Origin: an uncultured Eubacteriales bacterium | Lineage (GTDB): Bacteria; Bacillota; Clostridia; Christensenellales; Aristaeellaceae | Direction of reading: 5' to 3' | NCBI GenBank assembly: GCA_902790175.1 | Contig: CADAQZ010000014.1 | Coordinates: forward strand, 1 to 64,000 | DNA length: 64,000 bases | Shown here: piece by piece, positions 10,732 to 47,721 of the stretch | Numbering within the stretch: position 1 is the stretch's first letter | How the letters are laid out: the number at the start of each line of letters is the position of its first letter | Position numbers and translations under genes: made by a program | Notes under the pieces: generated by a model | What the model saw: only the letters and a program-made list of their open reading frames with translations | What the model was told of the DNA's origin: nothing | Database searches by the model: none

Positions 10732-13700
10732 ATGAACAGAAGCAGAGGGAATGTGAACCGCAACAGCAGGGCATGGGCGGCGTGGCGCTGGTTGGCGCTG
10801 ACGCTGTGCCTTGCGCTGCTGCTGGGCGGCGTGAGCGCGCTGGCGACCGATGAGCCTGAGCTCACGCCCGAGCAGATCGCGGCTGCGGATCAGGCTGCGA
10901 TAGACGCGGCGGCAGCAGACGCGGCGGCAGCAGAAGCGGCGGCAGCAGAAGCGGCGGCAGCGGAAGCAGCAGCGGCAGAAGCGGCAGCGGCTGCGGCCGA
11001 AGTCGTCGAGGAGCCTATCCCCGAACAGGTCGTCGAGTTGACCGCGGAGGAACCTGCGGCGGAACCCGCGGCACCTGAGCCGGCACCTGAGCCGGTCGTC
11101 GAGCAACCCGCGGCGGAACCTGCGACGGCACCTGCGGCGGATCCCGCGGCGGCACCTGCGGCTGATCCAACAGAAACCTATACAGTTCTCTGGATGAATG
11201 AGGATGGCACCGTCGAGTTGGAAAGAGATACGGATGTTGGTGAAAACACGGCGCCATCCTTTGATAGCCCTGATAAACCAACCAAAACGGACCCGAATTA
11301 TACCTATGCCTTCGTAGGATGGGCGGATCATGACAATGCAGCGGTTAGCGAAGTGATCAATCCACTGCCCAAAGTAAATGCAAATACTACGTATTATGCG
11401 GTCTTTTCTGCAACACCGAACCAATACACGATCACCTGGAAAATGAACAACGGGGTATCCCCCGATGTTACAAAACAAGTTGATTACAATACCGTTCCGA
11501 CCTATGACGGCGAAACGCCGACCAAGCAAACGGCGAACAACACCACCTATACCTTCGACGGCTGGACAGTCGAAGGCGGTACGGACGTCATCACGACCTT
11601 CCCGCCGGTGACCGGTGTTGCGATCTATGTCGCGCACTATGCCGAAGCCCCCGTTACCTATCCCGTCACCTGGAAGCTGGACAACGGCGCCGCGGACGAG
11701 ACGACGAACGTGGCTTACAATACAAAGCCGACTCACGACGCGCCGACCAAGGCGGCGGACGCGCAGAGCACCTATACCTTCGCGGGCTGGTACGACGAAG
11801 CCGACGCGGAAAAGACGGTCAAGGCGGTCGAGGAGCTGCCCGCGGTGACTGCCGCGGTGACCTATGTCGCCAGCTATACCGCGACCCCTGTCCCGTATCC
11901 CGTCACCTGGAAGCTGGACCCCGACAAGGCGGAGGCGGTCGAGACGACGAACGTGGCCTATGGCACAAAGCCCACCCACGACGCGCCGACGAAGGACTCC
12001 GACGGCGAGAGCCTGTTTACCTTCGCGGGCTGGTATGACGAGGTCGAGAAGGACAAGGAAGACAAGAAGATCTATAAGCCGGGCGAGGAGCTCCCGGCGG
12101 TGACCGGCGCGGTGACCTATGTCGCGACCTATACCACCGAGAGCCTGACCATCCAGGAAGGCTTCCTCTGGTACAAGCTGAACCCCGAGAAGACCGAGGC
12201 GACCGTCACCGCTTGGACCTGGGAGATGGGCGAGAACAACAGCGTGGTCGTGCCCGAGACCATCCTGGGCGGCAAGGCGAAGGTCGTCGCCATCGGCGAC
12301 GGCGTGTTCAAGGACCACGAGGCGCTCGCCAGCCTCTCGATCCCCTGCGGCGTGAAGCGCATCGGCGCGAATTCCATCGTGAACCTGCCGCTGCTGGCCA
12401 CGCTGACGCTGCCGGACAGCCTGGAGACCCTGGGCGAGAACGCCCTGACCAATCTGCCGGCGCTGACGACGGTGATGCTCTGCTGCACGGGGAACACTTC
12501 GCTGGACCCCGCGACCACCATCACGCACAACGGCGAGGCGCCTGCCACGCTGACGCTGCCCGTGTCCGTGACGGACATTCGCGTGACCAAGAACAACGTG
12601 CCGGAGAACCCCGCACTTTTGAACATCGGCACCTTCTGGGTGCAGCCCGGCCACGCCATCACCGTGGAGGAGGGCGCGACCCTGATCAACAACCGTGAGA
12701 TCGTGGCCTGCGGCGGCACCATCACCTGCGCCGGAACATTCACGAACCTCGACGGCACCACCTACATCGCCCCCGGCGAGCACTACTATGTCGGCGGCAT
12801 TTGCGAGCGCTGCCAGACGGCCTGCACGCACAACTACGTGAACGGCGTGTGCACCATCTGCGGCGTGGAGCTGCCGAAGCTCACCTTCAAGTACAAGGGC
12901 GGGAAGCTGGAGAAGGTCTACGACTCCACCACGAAGGTGAAGTACTCCCAGAGCACCGGCACGATCGAGGCCTACGACCTCGAGGCCGAGGCCCAGAAGG
13001 CGGGCTTCTCCATCGAGGGCCTGGACGACGCGCACAAGGACGTCACGATCAAGAGCATCAAGCTGGGCACGTTCAAGAGCGCGAACGTCGGCGACTATGA
13101 GTTGAGCGTCGACTTCACGCTGGAGGGCGCGGACGCGGAGTACTACCAGTGCGAATCCGCGAAGGTGCCTGCGGCGATCACGAAGAAGACGCTGACCATC
13201 ACGCCCTACCCGGACCAGAAGAAGGTGTATGGCGCGAAGGACCCGTCCACCTACACCGGCAAGGTGAAGGGCCTGCTTTCCGCCGACAAGATCGACGGCA
13301 AGCTGAGCCGCGACGCCGGCGAGAACGCGGGCAAGTACCGCATCACGCAGGGCGACCTCAAGGTGAACGACAACTACAACATCCAGGTGATGGAGGAGTA
13401 CTTCACCATCGAGCCCAAGAGCATCAACAGCTCCGACGTAGGCCTGGTGTCGATCGGCAACCAGCTCTATACCGGAAAGGAAGTGGAGCCGGAGATCACG
13501 CTGCGCTACGGCAGCCAGACCCTGGTAAAGGGCACCGACTTCAAGGTGGAGTATAAAGACAACGTGCAGCCCGGCACGGCCACCGTGACGCTGACCGGCA
13601 TGGGCAACTACAACGGCACGCGCCAGACCAACTTCCGCATCCTGAACGTCGCCTCCAACACGGGCGGCGGCTCCAGCGGCGGCGGCAGCTCCGGCAGCTC

Positions 13701-41098: not shown

Positions 41099-41638
41099 TC
41101 AGTCGTTCTTGGCTTCCTCGGCGGCCTCTTCGACGGCGGCCTCCGCGCCCTCAGCGGCCTCCTCGACGGCGGCCTCGGCGTTCTCGGCGGTCTCCTCGGC
41201 GGCTTCCTTGACGCCCTCGGTGGCCTCCTCAACGGCGGCCTCGGCGTTCTCGGCGGTCTCCTCTACGGCAGCCTCCGCGCCCTCGACGGCTTCCTTGGCC
41301 TCGGTCTCGGCCTCCTCCACGGCGTTCTCAGCCTGCTCGGCGGCCTCCTCCACGGCCTCGGTGACGCTGGCGGGAGCGGTGCTCTTGGCGCCGGTGTTGT
41401 GGGTGGTGATGATGGTGGCGACGATCGCCAGCACGATGAACACGGCCGCGGCGATCTTGGTGTAGCGCTGCAGGCGGCCTTCCATGCTCTTGGCCTTGTT
41501 CTTGCCGAAGAACGTCTCAGCGCCGCCGCCGATCGCGCCCAGGCCCTGACGCTGGCCCTCCTGCATCAGCACGGTCACGATGAGAACGATGGAAACCAGG
41601 ATCAGTACGATGTCGATGATGATGGAAACAGCGGTCAT
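41099..41638 (-). CDS. secG: SecG translocase subunit with long acidic repeat tail
   Basis: SecG is the small membrane subunit of the SecYEG export channel. Residues 1-75 match the family: two transmembrane helices around the cytosolic LMQEGQRQGLGAIGGGAETFFGKNKAKSMEGRLQR loop, then KIAAAVFIVLAIVATII. The protein is 179 residues, about 100 longer than usual. The extra part is a low-complexity Ala/Glu tail of 11-residue-like units (EEAAEGAEAAV, EETAENAEAAV) with no Arg and few Lys, likely an extended acidic helix on the outer face. The start at 41638 excludes about 32 upstream residues that lack an RBS. Confidence 0.92.
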   Translation of the reverse strand: MTAVSIIIDIVLILVSIVLIVTVLMQEGQRQGLGAIGGGAETFFGKNKAKSMEGRLQRYTKIAAAVFIVLAIVATIITTHNTGAKSTAPASVTEAVEEAAEQAENAVEEAETEAKEAVEGAEAAVEETAENAEAAVEEATEGVKEAAEETAENAEAAVEEAAEGAEAAVEEAAEEAKND

Positions 41639-41742
41639 GGGGTCATCCTCCTTAAGTATCAAACGCAAATCATCCGGGATTATTCCGGCGCGTACCCGCC
41701 CAAAGGGCGCAAAAAGAACACGTCGTTCAAACACACTGGCCT

Positions 41743-41845: not shown

Positions 41846-41980
41846 AGATCCTTTGCTTCACAGGCCTGAGGCACGACTGCGCATTGCTGACGCAAGGCTC
41901 CGCTCAGGATGACAGGTCAGCGGTCGATGCAAAGTTGTCATCCTGAGCGAAGCCGCGAAGCGGCGCAGTCGAAGGATCTT
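41846..41980. repeat. Head-to-head GTCATCCTGAGCG element, copy 1
   Basis: Two outward units: AAGATCC...CGACTGCGC...GGCTCCGCTCAGGATGACAG (41846-41914) and GTTGTCATCCTGAGCG...GCGCAGTCGAAGGATCTT (41934-41980). They are approximate inverted copies. The gap 41772-42017 has no gene. Confidence 0.85.
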
Positions 41981-42017: not shown

Positions 42018-42872
42018 TCATTCCTCAAACATCTCCGCGATCTTCAGCTTGGCCCGGTACACCTCGTTGCGGGCGTATCCGGCCTCTGCGGCCGCGTCGG
42101 CGGCCTGGCGCAGGTCGCCGCCCTCCAGAAGCCGCTCCAGCATGAACGCCGCGGCTCCCGGGCGCGGCGCGGGCGTTTCCACGGGCGGCAGCATCGAGAT
42201 GTCCGCCGCGAGGCAGTACTCGCCCTTCTCCACGCTGGGGTTGGCCTGCAGCGCGGCGAGCACGTCCGGGGCCGCGCCGCGGTAGATGCGCTCGAACTTC
42301 TTGGTCAGGTCGCTGCACACGCACAGCGCGCACGCGGGCCACTTTTCGGCCAGCGCGGCGACGAGGTCCACGATCCGGTGCGGCGATTCGTACAGCACGA
42401 ACACGCCGACGCCGGCGCGCCGGATGGCGTCCAGCTTGTCCGAGAGCGCCTTTTTCTCGCGCGGCAAAAAGCCGTAGAACGCGAACTCGCGCGCGTCGAA
42501 GCCGCTGGCGGACAGGCACGTGACGGCGGCGGACGGCCCGCAGACCGGCTCCACCGGGATGCCCGCCTCCCAGCACGCGCGCACCAGCAGGTGCCCGGGG
42601 TCGGAGATGCCCGGCGTGCCCGCGTCGCAAGTCAGCGCCACGGTCAGATCCTCCGCCAGCATCTTTTCGACGATCTGCGGGGCCTTCGCTTCCTCGTTGT
42701 GCCGGTGGCAGGAGAGCATCGGCTTGTGCAGGTCAAACTGGTTCAGCAGCTTCATCGTCACGCGGGTGTCCTCCGCGGCGATCAGGTCGGCGCACTCCAG
42801 CGCCTGGCGCATCCGCGGCGTCAGGTCGTTCAGGTTGCCGATGGGCGTGGCGACGACGTACAGCTTGGGCAT
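42018..42872 (-). CDS. rsmI: 16S rRNA (cytidine1402-2'-O)-methyltransferase RsmI
   Basis: A 284-residue tetrapyrrole-methylase-fold enzyme that methylates the ribose of C1402 in the decoding centre. Motifs: LYVVATPIGNLNDLTPRM, LIAAEDTRVTMKLLNQF, LTCDAGTPGISDPGHLLV, VEPVCGPSAAVTCLSASGF, FYGFLPREKK, YESPHRIVDLV and the C-terminal READ-like helix. Length is normal. It is 18 bases after an isochorismatase-like gene and in the same run as the Rmt-like methyltransferase; the two rRNA enzymes both modify the decoding site. Confidence 0.95.
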   Translation of the reverse strand: MPKLYVVATPIGNLNDLTPRMRQALECADLIAAEDTRVTMKLLNQFDLHKPMLSCHRHNEEAKAPQIVEKMLAEDLTVALTCDAGTPGISDPGHLLVRACWEAGIPVEPVCGPSAAVTCLSASGFDAREFAFYGFLPREKKALSDKLDAIRRAGVGVFVLYESPHRIVDLVAALAEKWPACALCVCSDLTKKFERIYRGAAPDVLAALQANPSVEKGEYCLAADISMLPPVETPAPRPGAAAFMLERLLEGGDLRQAADAAAEAGYARNEVYRAKLKIAEMFEE

Positions 42873-42890: not shown

Positions 42891-43403
42891 CTAAATAAAC
42901 TCGATCCCGGCCTCGTCCAGCTTCTTCTGGGCATTCGCCGCCCGCTTCGGCGGCATCACGGTGGCGGTGCCATCCCGGAGGATGGCGACCTCGTAGCCGC
43001 GCTTCTTCGCGCCCAGCGCCGTGGCGGTCACGCAGCCGTACTGGTCCAGGCCGCACAGGTGCAGGCGCTCGACGCCGTGCTTTTCAAGCCATTCGCGCAG
43101 CGCGGCGGTCGTCAGCGCGTCGCCGAAGTGCTTGTCAAAGTGGTTTTCGCCTGCGATCTCCAGCCCGCCGTACAGCTCCGCGCCCTCCGTGCCCGCGAGG
43201 GAGAAGCCGAACAGCAGCCGGTTCGTCGGCAGGTTCTGGATGATGTGGCGGATGTAGACGATTTCGCAGCCCTGTTCGGCGTCTCGGCGGATGATGCCGT
43301 TGACGGACGCGACGAGCGCCTCTGTGTCGTAGGCGAAGCGCGGCTTTCGCGCGGGCCAGAGGTAGTCGTTCTGCATGTCGATGACAAGCAATGCGGTGTT
43401 CAT
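42891..43403 (-). CDS. Isochorismatase-family cysteine hydrolase
   Basis: A 170-residue hydrolase. The start ALLVIDMQNDYLWP carries the catalytic Asp; the Lys is in the FDKHFGDALTTAALREWL region and the nucleophilic Cys in LCGLDQYGCVTATALGAKKRGY, followed by LRDGTATV. Substrates in this family include nicotinamide, carbamates and pyrazinamide-like amides; none is fixed here. It overlaps the Rmt-like gene upstream by four bases (ATGA). Confidence 0.9.
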   Translation of the reverse strand: MNTALLVIDMQNDYLWPARKPRFAYDTEALVASVNGIIRRDAEQGCEIVYIRHIIQNLPTNRLLFGFSLAGTEGAELYGGLEIAGENHFDKHFGDALTTAALREWLEKHGVERLHLCGLDQYGCVTATALGAKKRGYEVAILRDGTATVMPPKRAANAQKKLDEAGIEFI

Positions 43404-44197
43404 GGGCGCGCCTCCTTTCCGAGGATGAAGAACAGTTCGTTGCCGGTCTCAAACGACGCGGCGACGCTTCGACCCGCCGGGATGTGCGCCGCCATCCAGT
43501 CGGAATACTGCGCCGCCATGCCCACGTTCCTTCCGCCCATCGTGCGCGTGGGGAAGGAGACGACGAGCCAGTTGGCGTTCACGGCGTTCATCACATCCAG
43601 CGCCGCGCCCGCCTTTTGGCGCTCCAGCAGCGGCAGCAGCTTGAACAGCAGCGCCACGTCAAAGGGCCCGGCGGGGATCGCACCGGGGCAGAGGATGTCG
43701 GCGCAGGCGGCGCTGACGGGCATGCCGTACACCTCACCGAAGCGGTTGACGGCGTCCACCGCAAGGCCGGAAATATCGACTCCGGTCGCTTTTATGCCCC
43801 GGGCGCCAAGGTACAGCGGCTGGATGCCGCAGGCGAGGTCCAGAACCGACCGAGGTCTACCTGTGACCTCGAATATGCGCGCGTACAGCGCGTCCATGTC
43901 CGAAACGGGCAGCCGTTCCCGGGTGGAGGCGTGCAGCGAGAGCATCTTTTCCAAACCGACGTCGGTATGTTTTATGCACCAGTCCTGCATGTCATACGCC
44001 AGCTGCCGCGCCTCCCCGGGCGTCATGAAGGCCCCGCTGATGCCGTGCAGCGCCTCGCGGGCCGCCTTCTCGACGTCCTTGGGCTTTTTGTACCGGCGCA
44101 CGCACTCCGCCCACACCCGCCGCACCGTGTCCGGACAGATGTCGCGGTAGTTCTTCGATTGAAGCAGCTTGTCGAGGAGGGGATTTGAATCCGGCAT
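43400..44197 (-). CDS. Rmt/FmrO-family 16S rRNA (guanine1405-N7)-methyltransferase-like protein
   Basis: A 265-residue protein matching the family of ArmA, RmtB and actinomycete FmrO/Grm, which methylate N7 of G1405 in 16S rRNA and confer high aminoglycoside resistance. Visible motifs: LHASTRERLP (88-97), the SAM site VLDLACGIQPLYL (118-130), FDVALLFKLLPLLERQKAG (179-197) and VSFPTRTMGGRNVGM (213-227), in family order and spacing. Length is close to ArmA/RmtB. The start at 44197 is chosen because codons further up lie in a dispersed repeat. It is chromosomal, in step with local GC, and coupled to an isochorismatase-like gene and rsmI. No mobile element is adjacent. Whether it modifies G1405 is untested. 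Confidence 0.82.
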   Translation of the reverse strand: MPDSNPLLDKLLQSKNYRDICPDTVRRVWAECVRRYKKPKDVEKAAREALHGISGAFMTPGEARQLAYDMQDWCIKHTDVGLEKMLSLHASTRERLPVSDMDALYARIFEVTGRPRSVLDLACGIQPLYLGARGIKATGVDISGLAVDAVNRFGEVYGMPVSAACADILCPGAIPAGPFDVALLFKLLPLLERQKAGAALDVMNAVNANWLVVSFPTRTMGGRNVGMAAQYSDWMAAHIPAGRSVAASFETGNELFFILGKEARP

Positions 44198-44221: not shown

Positions 44222-44336
44222 AGATTCTTCGACTTCGCGCGCCTTCGGCGCGCTCCGCTCAGAATGACAGCGAAACGGAATGCCTGTCATCCTGAGCGGA
44301 GCCTTGCGGCAAGCAAGGCGCAGTCGATGGATCTTT
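44222..44336. repeat. Head-to-head GTCATCCTGAGCG element, copy 2
   Basis: Two outward units, 44222-44270 (AGATTCTTCGACTTCGCGC ... CCGCTCAGAATGACAG) and 44284-44336 (CTGTCATCCTGAGCGGAGCC ... GCAGTCGATGGATCTTT). It fills most of the gap between tgt and the methyltransferase gene. Confidence 0.85.
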
Positions 44337-44356: not shown

Positions 44357-45442
44357 TCACTCGGCACTGCCGAGCAGCTCCATCAGCCGCCCGTAAAAGC
44401 GCAGGTTGTGCGCGGTGGCGAGGCGCAAGGCGGCGGGGTCGTTCACCTTGAACAGGTGGTGCAGGTACGCGCGGGAGTGGTTTTTGCACAGCACGCAGTC
44501 GCAGGCGGGGTCCACGGGCCCGTCCTCGCGGCGGTGCTCGTCGTCGAGGATGTACAGGAATTTGTAAAACTTCCCGTCCTCGCGCCGCACGCACGCGGGC
44601 GTGTCCCGGCCCGGCATCCACGTGTACAGCCGCTGGTGGCGCGCCTCGCGGGTGGGGATCACGCAGTCGAACAGCGTGTAGCCCATCTTTACCAGCGCGG
44701 CTATCTCCTCCGGCCGGCCGAGGCCCATCGCGTACTTGATCTTGCCGTCCGGCATCGCGTCCGCCGCCATTTTCAGGATGTCCGCGCGGAACTTGCCGTC
44801 CGAGTCCAGCGGCCAGCCGCCGAAGCCGTAGCCGTCGAAGCCGATTTCTTCCAGCCGCCGCCCGCACTCGGCGCGCAATTCCGGATCGCTGCCGCCCTGC
44901 ACGATGCAGAACAACAGCGGCTTCTTCTCCATCCTTGCCGACAGCTTGTCGAACTCCGCGCGACAGCGCTCGCCCCACTTCACGGTCAGCTCCACGCTGC
45001 GCCGCTGTACGTCCGCCGGGTCGTCCGGGTGTGTGCACATGTCCAGCGCCATCATGATGTCGCTGCCGTACTGGAACTGCACCTGCATGCACTTTTCCGG
45101 CGTGTAGGTCAGCTTTTCCCGACCGAGGTCGGGCCTGAAGATGATCTCCTTGTCGCGGATCTCGCCGTACTCCGGGTTTTCGCGGATCAGCGAGTACAGC
45201 TGGAACCCGCCGGAGTCGGTGAGGATCGCGCCCGTGTAGCCGGTGAAGCCGTGCAGCCCGCCGAGGCTCTTGATCAGCTTCGCGCCGGGCTTGGTCATCA
45301 GGTGGTAGCTGTTCATTTCGCAGCCCATCAGCCCCGCCGCGTCCACGTCCTCAAACGAGCCCGCGCGGATCGCGCCGTAGGTGGCGTCCGGGAAGAAGGC
45401 GGGCAGCCGCACCGCGCCGGAGGGAGTTTCAAGATAGCGCAT
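44357..45442 (-). CDS. tgt: tRNA-guanine transglycosylase family protein, divergent
   Basis: A 361-residue member of the TGT family, which exchanges G34 of tRNA for a 7-deazaguanine. Kept: NSYHLMTKPGAKLIKSLGGLHGFTG, the Asp of AILTDSGGFQLYSL, FCIVQGGSD, the nucleophile Asp in LFDCVIPTREARHQ and the zinc cluster CDCVLCKNH...H. Changed: the substrate-pocket GGLAVGE is here GFGGWPLDSDG, and the DECPPYPA region is LDMCTHPDD. It may be a functional TGT with altered base choice. No queuosine synthesis genes are near. Start 45442. Confidence 0.85.
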   Translation of the reverse strand: MRYLETPSGAVRLPAFFPDATYGAIRAGSFEDVDAAGLMGCEMNSYHLMTKPGAKLIKSLGGLHGFTGYTGAILTDSGGFQLYSLIRENPEYGEIRDKEIIFRPDLGREKLTYTPEKCMQVQFQYGSDIMMALDMCTHPDDPADVQRRSVELTVKWGERCRAEFDKLSARMEKKPLLFCIVQGGSDPELRAECGRRLEEIGFDGYGFGGWPLDSDGKFRADILKMAADAMPDGKIKYAMGLGRPEEIAALVKMGYTLFDCVIPTREARHQRLYTWMPGRDTPACVRREDGKFYKFLYILDDEHRREDGPVDPACDCVLCKNHSRAYLHHLFKVNDPAALRLATAHNLRFYGRLMELLGSAE

Positions 45443-45593: not shown

Positions 45594-45621
45594 CAATTCC
45601 TCATTCCTCATTCCTAATTCC
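45594..45621 (-). repeat. GGAATGA array encoding the rsmH C-terminus
   Basis: Minus strand units GGAATTA, GGAATGA, GGAATGA, GGAATTG. The rsmH stop TGA (45601-45603) is the end of the third unit, so the last residues GIRNEE of RsmH are repeat-encoded. Confidence 0.92.
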
Positions 45622-46566
45622 AAATTTCTCGACAATTCTCAGGCTCGCGCTTCGCGCGCGGGGGTTCTGCTCCAGTTCGACGTCGGAGGCCGTGACGGGC
45701 TTGCGGGTGATGAGCCTGACGCTGGGCTTCTTGCCGCACACGCACACGGGAAAGGACTTCGGGCAGGTGCAGGGGTCGGCGAGATTGCGAAACGTGTTCT
45801 TGACGATGCGGTCCTCCAGCGAGTGGAACGTGATCGCGCACAGCCGTCCGCCTGGGTTCAATAGGTCGACCAGCGCGCGCAGCGCAGGCTCCAGCGGGTC
45901 CAGCTCGTCGTTCACGGCGATGCGCAGCGCCTGGAAGGTGCGCCGGGCCGGGTGGCTGCCGTCTGTTGAGCGGAATTTCTTGGGGATCGCCGCGTCGATC
46001 ACGTCCACCAGCTGGCCGGTGGTCTCGATGGGGGCGGACTTGCGGCGGTCACAGATCACGCGCGCGATCTGCCGCGCCCACTTCTCCTCGCCGTAGTCGC
46101 GCAGTACGCGGTTGAGCTCGTCCTCGCTCCACGTGTTCACGATCTCGCGCGCCGTCAATGCCTGGCTCTGGTCCATGCGCATGTCCAGCGCCGCGTCGTC
46201 GTGGTACGAGAAGCCGCGCTCGCGCACGTCCAGCTGGTGGCTGGAGACGCCCAGGTCGATCAGGATTCCGTCGAAGGCCGGAGCGATGCCCGCCGCTTCG
46301 AGCAGCGCCGGGGCGTCGTGGAAGTTGCCCCGCAGGCACTTAAAATGAGCCGGGGCGTTCAGCGCCGCCAGCCTTGCAGACGCCGCCTCGATGGCATCCG
46401 CGTCGCGGTCGATGCCGACCAGCAGCCCGCCCGGGCTCAGCCGCCGCAAAATCTCGGACGAGTGGCCTGCGCCGCCCAGCGTGCAATCCAGGTACGCGCC
46501 GTCCGGCTTAAGGTTCAGCCCGTCCAGGCATTCATTCAGCAGGACGGGAAGGTGGTGAAAGGACAT
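45601..46566 (-). CDS. rsmH: 16S rRNA (cytosine1402-N4)-methyltransferase
   Basis: A 321-residue SAM-dependent enzyme that methylates N4 of C1402, the same nucleotide served by RsmI. Motifs: HLPVLLNECLDGL, YLDCTLGGAGHSSEIL, VGIDRDADAI, FDGILIDLGVSSHQLD, RGFSYHDDAALDMRMDQSQ, RTFQALRIAVNDEL, LNPGGRLCAITFHSLEDRIVK. The last six residues come from a heptamer array that has replaced or extended the natural C-terminus. Unlike most genomes it is not at the head of a cell-division cluster here. Confidence 0.95.
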   Translation of the reverse strand: MSFHHLPVLLNECLDGLNLKPDGAYLDCTLGGAGHSSEILRRLSPGGLLVGIDRDADAIEAASARLAALNAPAHFKCLRGNFHDAPALLEAAGIAPAFDGILIDLGVSSHQLDVRERGFSYHDDAALDMRMDQSQALTAREIVNTWSEDELNRVLRDYGEEKWARQIARVICDRRKSAPIETTGQLVDVIDAAIPKKFRSTDGSHPARRTFQALRIAVNDELDPLEPALRALVDLLNPGGRLCAITFHSLEDRIVKNTFRNLADPCTCPKSFPVCVCGKKPSVRLITRKPVTASDVELEQNPRARSASLRIVEKFGIRNEE

Positions 46567-46710: not shown

Positions 46711-47721
46711 CTATATCTTCCACGGCGCGATGCCCAGCTTCTTGCGCACCTTGAGCATCGTGCGGTGGGCGATGGCGGCGGCGCGCTCGCGGCCGGAGTC
46801 CATCACCTGCTGCAGATACGCCTTGTCGGCGCTGATGCGCTCGTACTCATTCTGGATCGGCTCCAGCGCGGCGATCACGGCGTCGGCCACGGCGTCCTTG
46901 AACTTGCCGTAGCCCTGCCCGTCGTACTGGGCGGAGATCTCGTCCATGCCCATGCCCGTCAGCGCGGAGAGTATGCTCATCAGGTTGGCCACGCCCGGCT
47001 GCTTTTCCGGGTCGAACACCACGCGGTTTTCGCAGTCCGTCACAGCGCGGCGCAGCTTCTTGCGGATGATTTCGGGCTTGTCGAGGATGGCGATGTAGGT
47101 CTCCTCGGGGTCGGACTTCGACATCTTCCGGGTCGGCTCCTGCAGGCTCATCACGCGCGCGCCCACCTTGGGGAAGTAGCCCTCGGGCACGACGAACACG
47201 TCGCCGTACACGCCGTTGAAGCGCTCGGCGATGTCGCGCGCGATCTCCAAATGCTGCTTCTGGTCCGCGCCGATGGGCACCAGGTCCGTCTGGTACAGCA
47301 GGATGTCCGCCGCCATCAGCACCGGGTAGGTGAACAGGCCGCAGTTGATGTTGTCGGCGTGCTTGGCTGACTTGTCCTTGAACTGCGTCATGCGGCTCAT
47401 CTCGCCCATGTAGGTAAAGCAGTTCAAAATCCAGGCCAGCTCCGGATGCGCGGCCACCTGGCTCTGGAAGTAGATGATGTTCTTTTCGGGGTCCAGGCCG
47501 CTGGCCAGGAACAGCGCCATCGTGCGCAGGCACGCCTTGCGAAGTTCCGCCGGGTTCTGGCGCACGGTCAGCGCGTGCAGGTCCACGATGGAGTACAGGC
47601 AGTCGTACTCGTCCTGCAGCAGGCCGAAGTTGCGCAGCGCGCCGATGTAGTTGCCCAGCGTCAGGTTGCCCGTGGGCTGGATGCCGGAAAAGATGCGTTT
47701 TTTCTGGATTTGCTGTTCCAT
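46711..47721 (-). CDS. trpS: Tryptophanyl-tRNA synthetase
   Basis: A 336-residue class I synthetase that charges tRNA-Trp. It has the HIGH-equivalent region RIFSGIQPTGNLTLGNYIGALRN, the tryptophan-site IVDLHALTV, TYPVLMAADILLYQTDLVPIGADQKQHLEIARDIAERFN, and the KMSKS loop LQEPTRKMSKSDPEETYIAIL. Length normal. No T-box or trp leader found; the short gap to the upstream acetyltransferase-like gene (34 bases) suggests they share a transcript. Confidence 0.96.
   Translation of the reverse strand: MEQQIQKKRIFSGIQPTGNLTLGNYIGALRNFGLLQDEYDCLYSIVDLHALTVRQNPAELRKACLRTMALFLASGLDPEKNIIYFQSQVAAHPELAWILNCFTYMGEMSRMTQFKDKSAKHADNINCGLFTYPVLMAADILLYQTDLVPIGADQKQHLEIARDIAERFNGVYGDVFVVPEGYFPKVGARVMSLQEPTRKMSKSDPEETYIAILDKPEIIRKKLRRAVTDCENRVVFDPEKQPGVANLMSILSALTGMGMDEISAQYDGQGYGKFKDAVADAVIAALEPIQNEYERISADKAYLQQVMDSGRERAAAIAHRTMLKVRKKLGIAPWKI

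Follow-up and report, generated by a model that had tools for sequence, protein, structure and literature searches.

A chromosomal, genus-wide predicted 16S rRNA G1405-N7 methyltransferase from a bacterial family that is the likely source of rmtD and rmtG

The 64,000-nucleotide stretch of DNA analysed here (the window; contig CADAQZ010000014.1 of the uncultured Eubacteriales assembly GCA_902790175.1) carries genes in the order trpS-rsmH-tgt-rmt-(isochorismatase)-rsmI-secG (Table 1). Within this block, rmt is flanked by two enzymes that act on C1402, rsmH and rsmI. A sequence-only reading of this DNA had already described a translation-modification neighbourhood on account of rsmI, and this description holds; rsmH, the other C1402 enzyme, beyond tgt, was left unmentioned. 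Its statement that rmt lies next to rsmI is true of the relatives, in which the two genes are adjacent, but in the window one gene separates them. Two copies of an inverted-repeat element with the core CAT(T/C)CTGAGCGGAGC bracket rmt, the isochorismatase gene and rsmI; the pattern search gave four matches where 0.29 were expected. The SecG-like protein (positions 41099-41734, minus strand) has a long Ala/Glu-rich tail of near-repeats.

Table 1. Genes and repeat elements of the rmt region, with positions in the window.
Feature	Position	Strand	Assignment and basis
trpS	46711-47721	-	Tryptophanyl-tRNA synthetase, start of the block; PF00579; 3′ part found on rmtG plasmids
rsmH	45601-46566	-	16S rRNA C1402-N4 methyltransferase (MraW family); PF01795, 397 bits
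tgt, Rmt-linked	44357-45442	-	Second, divergent tRNA-guanine transglycosylase paralog, 361 aa; TIGR00430, 288.1 bits
Inverted-repeat intergenic element	44252-44302		Between tgt and rmt; pattern search
rmt	43400-44197	-	Predicted 16S rRNA (guanine1405-N7) methyltransferase, 265 aa; NF000466, FmrO, PDB relatives RmtF/RmtB, trees
Isochorismatase-like hydrolase	42891-43403	-	PF00857; 4-base overlap with rmt; outside the conserved block
rsmI	42018-42872	-	16S rRNA C1402 2′-O-methyltransferase; TIGR00096, 194.6 bits (cut-off 167.9); 5′ part found on rmtG plasmids
Inverted-repeat element, second copy	41897-41953		Beyond rsmI

The rmt reading frame has no internal stop codon. An alternative upstream ATG would yield a protein of 296 residues; homologue starts cluster near position 44197. 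All four sequence blocks of the G1405 enzymes that had been picked out by eye are present in order within the 265 residues: STRER (residues 91-95), CGIQPL (123-128), LLPLLERQKAG (187-197) and SFPTRTMGGRNVGM (214-227). The profile search proposed as a check, against Pfam FmrO (PF07091), returns 121 bits over a cut-off of 27, and the NCBIfam Rmt equivalog model NF000466 is passed with 279.4 bits (cut-off 250). The protein falls below the cut-offs of the allele models (500-525 bits, with 500 each for RmtD and RmtG), scoring 275 bits with RmtD, 233 with RmtG, 206 with RmtF and 189 with RmtB. In a PDB sequence search the best matches are RmtF (6pi9, 202 bits) and RmtB (3frh, 185 bits), followed by Sgm and RmtC. 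A predicted model of the protein (pLDDT 94.9) gives TM scores of 0.83-0.84 to RmtF and RmtB, and its top 16 fold matches in the PDB are chains of RmtF, RmtB, RmtC, Sgm and ArmA, all of them G1405 enzymes. It also has the conserved residue at all 32 invariant positions in an alignment of 33 Rmt sequences, which were hand-picked from about 300 protein hits and include RmtA, RmtB, RmtD and RmtH. Judged by sequence and predicted fold, the window protein is almost certainly a member of the Rmt-type G1405-N7 16S rRNA methyltransferase family, in agreement with the original Rmt/FmrO-like call.

The predicted enzyme would dock on the finished 30S subunit, a mechanism known for the family, and would methylate N7 of G1405 in helix 44 using S-adenosylmethionine. 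The resulting m7G1405 would block 4,6-disubstituted 2-deoxystreptamine aminoglycosides. A 15-base universal 16S pattern, ACACACCGCCCGTCA, was found in none of 29 rmt-positive genomes (for example, G000), in which the rRNA genes are likely unassembled or absent from the data and a helix 44 change is possible.

The gene blends into its surroundings, as had been noted: its G+C content of 65.2% equals that of the window, although its GC3 (84%) is somewhat low, being the lowest of nine genes compared (87-94% in the remaining ones). Its dN/dS is 0.26 against locus L034 and 0.24 against L035, with values of 0.09-0.21 for tgt, rsmI and rsmH. Thus, rmt is under purifying selection that is somewhat looser than that on its neighbours. 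The earlier label 'Clostridium' did not survive: the window has 65% G+C, and the named MAGs closest to it bear the titles 'uncultured Clostridiales bacterium' (two, with the label RUG, presumably for rumen) and 'Clostridia bacterium'.

NF000466 matches 27 of the 28 genomes of the window's genus, including all 14 high-quality ones; the sole genome without a match (G007) is 67% complete. In the family as a whole, rmt is present in 69 of 308 genomes, a count that combines NF000466 on 200 genomes with an RmtD1 search of all 308 (G054 and G087 were found by NF000466 alone). Because NF000466 at E 1e-3 weakly matches five of 14 control genomes, none above the cut-off, further hits were counted at E 1e-15. 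FmrO has one match in the window's own genome and none in the 14 controls. Samples of the order (297 genomes) and class (341 genomes) hold eight rmt matches, four of these from two other families, and three matches, the window's genome included, respectively. Some of the corresponding MAG proteins already carry the NCBI name 'Rmt family 16S rRNA (guanine(1405)-N(7))-methyltransferase', which means that the gene call by itself has a precedent. The proposal that the gene is chromosomal and intrinsic is borne out by its one fixed chromosomal block in the compared loci and its presence in 27 of 28 genus genomes; by the same two observations, the window rmt is not an acquired (mobile) 16S-RMTase.

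The block is conserved well beyond the window. In 35 family loci (the window's own two copies excluded; the pairs L002/L036 and L005/L035 look like the same place counted twice), tgt adjoins rmt every time, and rsmI follows rmt in all but L007, which ends before it. The isochorismatase gene recurs only in L034 and is an insertion of the window species and L034. Its coupling to rmt, which had been put forward as a property of the locus, is real as a four-base overlap but is no general feature, and the gene was dropped as a functional partner. Twelve rmt-less family genomes with a completeness of 94% or more were hand-picked for comparison: rsmH and rsmI are immediate neighbours in nine (in reversed order in L168), and in the other three the two are not within 1.5 kb of each other. 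The tgt-rmt pair thus occupies a spot that is empty in nine rmt-less genomes. Farther afield, the tgt-rmt pair is retained in four loci from two other families, where the stretch examined contains no rsmI; the pair lies away from rsmH in L157, L158 and L160-L162, and the order is tgt-rmt-rsmI in a genome of another order (G492, locus L159).

The tgt gene of this pair is distinctive. Searching the 308 family genomes with the window Tgt gives a bimodal result: 67 genomes reach E 1e-110 or better (50-100% identity), whereas the non-carriers offer nothing beyond a canonical-like Tgt (identity about 35-41%, with the best E values running from about 1e-48 to 1e-65) or, in 30 cases, no match at E 1e-40. 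All 67 carriers of this linked tgt are among the 69 rmt-positive genomes, and 239 genomes have neither gene (Fisher p = 4e-66, kinship ignored). The two rmt-positive genomes that lack it, G103 and G174, have completeness values of 73% and 75%. In three genomes (G075, G102 and G066) the block is interrupted between tgt and rmt, such that rsmH-tgt and rmt-rsmI lie on separate contigs, each amid other genes, and both are kept; only in G075 is the break well inside contigs on both sides, and in G102 the tgt side is at a contig edge.

Alignment of 56 linked Tgts (52 chromosomal and four from plasmids) reveals that the canonical loop GGL(A/S)VGE, which we take to be the base-recognition loop, is replaced by GGWP (W in 55 of 56, P in all 56; GGWPLD in the window), and that a short insert follows SGGFQ. 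By contrast with this loop, FDCV.PTR.AR and CxCxxC...H, presumably the catalytic Asp motif and the zinc site, are invariant or nearly so. The proteins of the window (288.1 bits), rmtD1 (291.2) and rmtG (296.2) all score below the TIGR00430 cut-off of 306.75 bits; that of rmtB2 passes at 317.7 bits, and the canonical Klebsiella Tgt reaches 633.4. The predicted model of the linked Tgt has a pLDDT of 93.9. The view of this gene as the housekeeping copy was rejected: most rmt-positive genomes have two tgt genes and the other genomes a single canonical one, the loop sequence differs, and the window's own genome also has a canonical Tgt, on another contig. Beside that canonical tgt (L163:4915-7134, contig 15 of G000) is a 739-residue reading frame that by eye is repeat-rich with a caspase-like part. 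A difference in the queuosine pathway was also rejected, since QueA matches in all 77 hand-picked genomes (33 rmt-positive, 44 rmt-negative), 75 of them above the cut-off and G060 and G140 as fragments only. Because the catalytic Asp motif and zinc cysteines are kept, the linked Tgt is likely to be an active enzyme, with a changed preference for base or RNA.

We compared the window proteins with 11 plasmid stretches by tblastn. The rmtG stretches from K. pneumoniae Kp13 and E. hormaechei (L078, L079) hold a collinear block on one strand: TrpS residues 242-336 (71% identity), RsmH 1-315 (78%), Tgt (76%), RmtG (46%) and RsmI 1-79 (82%). This block is cut at both ends, inside trpS and rsmI, and protein identity outside rmt is 71-82%. 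The rmtD2 stretch holds RsmH 190-315 (81%), Tgt (79%) and RmtD2 (50%), and the rmtD1 stretch holds RsmH 285-315 (74%), Tgt (79%) and RmtD1 (51%); IS26 or IS91-like elements lie near the rmtD and rmtG stretches. On the rmtB2 stretch of P. rettgeri, a sister Tgt is followed by a metallophosphoesterase gene and RmtB2, and in two rmtE2 records a truncated Tgt lies upstream of, and overlaps, rmtE2. The rmtF1, rmtB1, rmtC and armA stretches have no block neighbours detectable by tblastn within 3.5-4 kb on either side.

A Tgt match of any kind occurs in 69 plasmid records, at least 16 of which are of the Rmt-linked kind by identity or annotation; among the 60 matches listed, the latter include at least two with rmtD, eight with rmtG, two from P. 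rettgeri, three from E. hormaechei and one from E. coli. Flanks were examined for seven of these 16 or more records, and for two of the eight or more with rmtG. Tgts of the window's family share 79-82% identity with the rmtD Tgt, compared with 38-39% for the enterobacterial Tgts among the matches listed. In one record (NZ_KT935445.1; L049:5319-6404 and 11918-13001), the linked tgt with the rsmH tail occurs twice with IS26 between, an arrangement that resembles tandem amplification. In another (NZ_CP032188.1; L083:3296-3391), a piece like Rmt residues 28-59 is found upstream of a whole rmtF1 and is perhaps a leftover of duplication. The rmtB2 stretch (L080:2775-8354) also carries genes for a CorA-type transporter, a metallophosphoesterase and part of a cation:proton antiporter, which may mark an unsampled donor because none matched the loci compared.

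This Tgt paralog, which travels with resistance genes on plasmids, is unstudied, and several observations make its functional coupling to rmt plausible. The alternative that tgt and rmt travel together as neighbours, and not as working partners, comes only a little short of an even chance in our estimation. The two genes are adjacent in nearly all loci, and plasmid capture takes neighbours along, as it has with pieces of rsmH, trpS and rsmI. However, all 67 genomes with linked tgt also have rmt, rsmH and rsmI remain where both are absent, the two genes are both retained in the three genomes where they are apart, and in other families and orders they remain side by side at sites away from rsmH. 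A bolder proposal, which we offer tentatively and consider unlikely, is that tgt and rmt form one decoding-centre system and that rmtA/B/D/E/F/G/H are broken-off halves of a clostridial pair. A new kind of Tgt, with a rebuilt base pocket and possibly another target RNA or base, would then work together with m7G1405, and the hospital rmt genes would, several times over, still be carrying their Tgt partner.

The phylogenetic check suggested in the sequence-only reading places acquired genes within the window's family. In a 60-row Rmt tree (11 further genus loci omitted as thinning), RmtD and RmtG fall inside the family (97/91 for a set of nine rows, 100/97 for a set of 27), and RmtF stands beside genus g2 (85/88), inside the family with modest support. 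RmtA, RmtB and RmtH, together with three metagenomic rows, are sister to the family (98/98 for the joint group), RmtE stands beside G571, which belongs to another order (100/92), and ArmA and RmtC are long branches of unsure placement. For two family genera (G060 and G092), rmt and Tgt branch outside the family set, with rmt near family f23. A 37-row tree built without the metagenomic rows and the G060 and G092 genes agrees with the larger one. Constraining 26 chromosomal family genes to group without RmtD, RmtG and RmtF was rejected (log-likelihood 61.7 lower, AU p = 0.00014) for a group picked after the 60-row tree.

The Tgt tree (68 rows; 18 genus loci omitted as thinning) separates Rmt-linked from canonical Tgts at 100/100, at a point where long branches meet and caution is due. 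The Tgts of rmtD and rmtG are inside the family (98/92), that of rmtB2 is sister to it (97/98), and that of rmtE2 groups with f23 and G092 (99/93). A Tgt from another order (L043) that was called canonical by an identity threshold nevertheless clusters with the linked Tgts and has the loop GGWPLD.

Because the neighbouring genes match in order around rmtD and rmtG, we propose that the window's family is very probably the source of these acquired genes, as far as gene order and trees can tell. Counting against this reading, the window rmt shares no more than 46-51% identity with RmtG and RmtD, the rmtB1, rmtF1, rmtC and armA stretches are without the neighbours, and the genes of two family genera (G060 and G092) branch outside the family in both trees. 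The closest protein to RmtD1 in the 308 family genomes is 63% identical, and metagenome proteins reach 83%, 83%, 76% and 73%; rmtD and rmtG probably came from a member of the family outside the genomes searched. The suggestion that the gene is a reservoir relative of ArmA/Rmt therefore divides: for rmtD and rmtG, inside the family and with neighbours, the case is stronger than claimed, but ArmA is distant (27-31%).

Movement appears to have run from chromosome to plasmid, since the plasmid flanking genes are cut inside trpS, rsmH or rsmI, IS26 or IS91-like elements are nearby, and the plasmid genes nest among chromosomal ones. The opposite course, in which a plasmid-acquired rmt entered this chromosome, could draw on the mobility of the family (1584 plasmid records of Rmt family members) and on an rmt GC3 slightly below that of the neighbours, yet it is extremely improbable given the truncated trpS, rsmH and rsmI pieces on plasmids, the nesting of acquired genes, and the conserved location of an rmt under purifying selection.

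The other acquired genes, rmtF, rmtA/B/H and rmtE, may each trace back to an inner or a sister branch of this tgt-rmt lineage. The case for them is weaker than that for rmtD and rmtG and draws on tree position and, for rmtB2 and rmtE2, also on the linked Tgt. A protein search with RmtB1 finds RmtA (82%), RmtH (64%) and unnamed relatives (66%, 65% and 58%). Acquired 16S-RMTases defeat most clinical aminoglycosides, and a family-level source with kept gene order makes their origin testable, with rsmH, tgt and rsmI as the neighbouring genes that could serve as its signature.

The primary publications on the genetic context of rmtD and rmtG are Doi 2008 and Passarelli-Araujo 2019. A 2022 review (PMC9311965), in its available part, cites Passarelli-Araujo 2019 for an operon that joins rmtG to rsmH, tgt and 'rsmL' (sic), and the accessible text of the Kp13 genome paper (PMC3904158) places a gene for a tRNA ribosyltransferase upstream of rmtG; neither of these portions names a source for rmtG. 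The available parts of the rmtD2 paper (PMC11590977), the rmtE paper (PMC10132066) and a paper on transfer between phyla (PMC12188727) contain no mention of tgt or queuine, of tgt, tRNA, Clostridi or Firmicutes, and of rmt, respectively. A paper on resistance-gene origins (PMC7782503) mentions neither rmt nor armA, and the subject of PMC12340973, in the part available, is NpmA. Across these portions of the literature, actinomycete producers are named as natural bearers and no source is given for rmtD or rmtG. We found no naming of a clostridial source for the two genes in these texts; an earlier statement elsewhere, supplements included, is possible.

In its native host, the enzyme could serve first as a standing modifier of the decoding centre, with drug insensitivity as a by-product, a view that we hold less firmly than that on origin. 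The presence of rmt throughout the genus and its place among other 16S enzymes agree with a standing modification; its patchy distribution across the family would suit a dispensable or protective trait just as well. It is a real possibility, if not the probable case, that aminoglycosides in the habitat maintain rmt, in which case m7G1405 would mark resistance rather than housekeeping. Proven members of the enzyme family confer high-level resistance, according to the available parts of two sources (PMC9311965, PMC12406665), rmt is found in only 69 of 308 family genomes, and it is dispensable where absent, with rsmH directly beside rsmI in nine of 12 rmt-less genomes. Against self-protection, 27 of 28 genus genomes keep rmt in one chromosomal place, the loci compared contain no mobile element, and aminoglycosides have little effect on anaerobes, clostridia included, as stated in the accessible part of one paper (PMC12188727). 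Since rmt is core in the genus yet patchy over the family, we put a housekeeping rather than protective role at about even.

It is very unlikely that the fold has been kept while another nucleotide is methylated or activity has been lost. G1405 activity is predicted by sequence, and even the nearest characterised enzyme among the matches, RmtD, is only 51% identical; but the G1405 equivalog cut-off is passed, the 32 invariant columns are common with RmtA, RmtB, RmtD and RmtH, and RmtD, RmtF and RmtG branch inside the family, which makes the same target the simplest ancestral state.

In E. coli, RmtC and Sgm block RsmF at C1407 and ArmA blocks RsmI, according to the available part of PMC12406665. 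An exclusion of RsmF from rmt-positive genomes was considered and rejected: an RsmF-type gene (PF13636) is present in 84 of 100 family genomes, comprising 29 of 37 with rmt and 55 of 63 without. Its presence with and without rmt indicates that coexistence of RsmH, RsmI and RsmF with rmt is common in these hosts. In this family, a predicted m7G1405 enzyme thus coexists naturally with RsmH, RsmI and an RsmF-type enzyme, whose marks are reportedly disturbed by G1405 enzymes in E. coli.

Among the known systems compared, RmtD1 is closest to the window Rmt (51% identity); RmtD1 and RmtD2 share the upstream tgt and rsmH tail, and RmtD nests in the window's family. Unlike the window rmt, RmtD is mobile and flanked by IS26 or IS91-like elements. 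For RmtG, the plasmid stretch (trpS piece-rsmH-tgt-rmtG-rsmI piece) is collinear with the window, but the methyltransferase is 46% identical and mobile. RmtF and RmtB/RmtA/RmtH are of the same family and fold as the window Rmt at 41-45% identity; block genes are absent beside rmtF1 and rmtB1, and a metallophosphoesterase gene separates tgt from rmtB2. RmtE, RmtC, ArmA and the actinomycete Sgm, the self-protection enzyme of an antibiotic producer, are G1405 enzymes of the FmrO family that are 27-31% identical to the window Rmt. At this distance ArmA and RmtC are only distant kin, and rmtE2 has a truncated linked tgt upstream, with RmtE placed beside a genome from a different order. Finally, the linked Tgt shares with canonical Tgt (Zymomonas mobilis, Klebsiella) its fold (TM 0.84-0.87), the catalytic Asp motif and the zinc cysteines, but is only about 35-41% identical to it and differs in having GGWP in place of GGL(A/S)VGE and an insert after SGGFQ.
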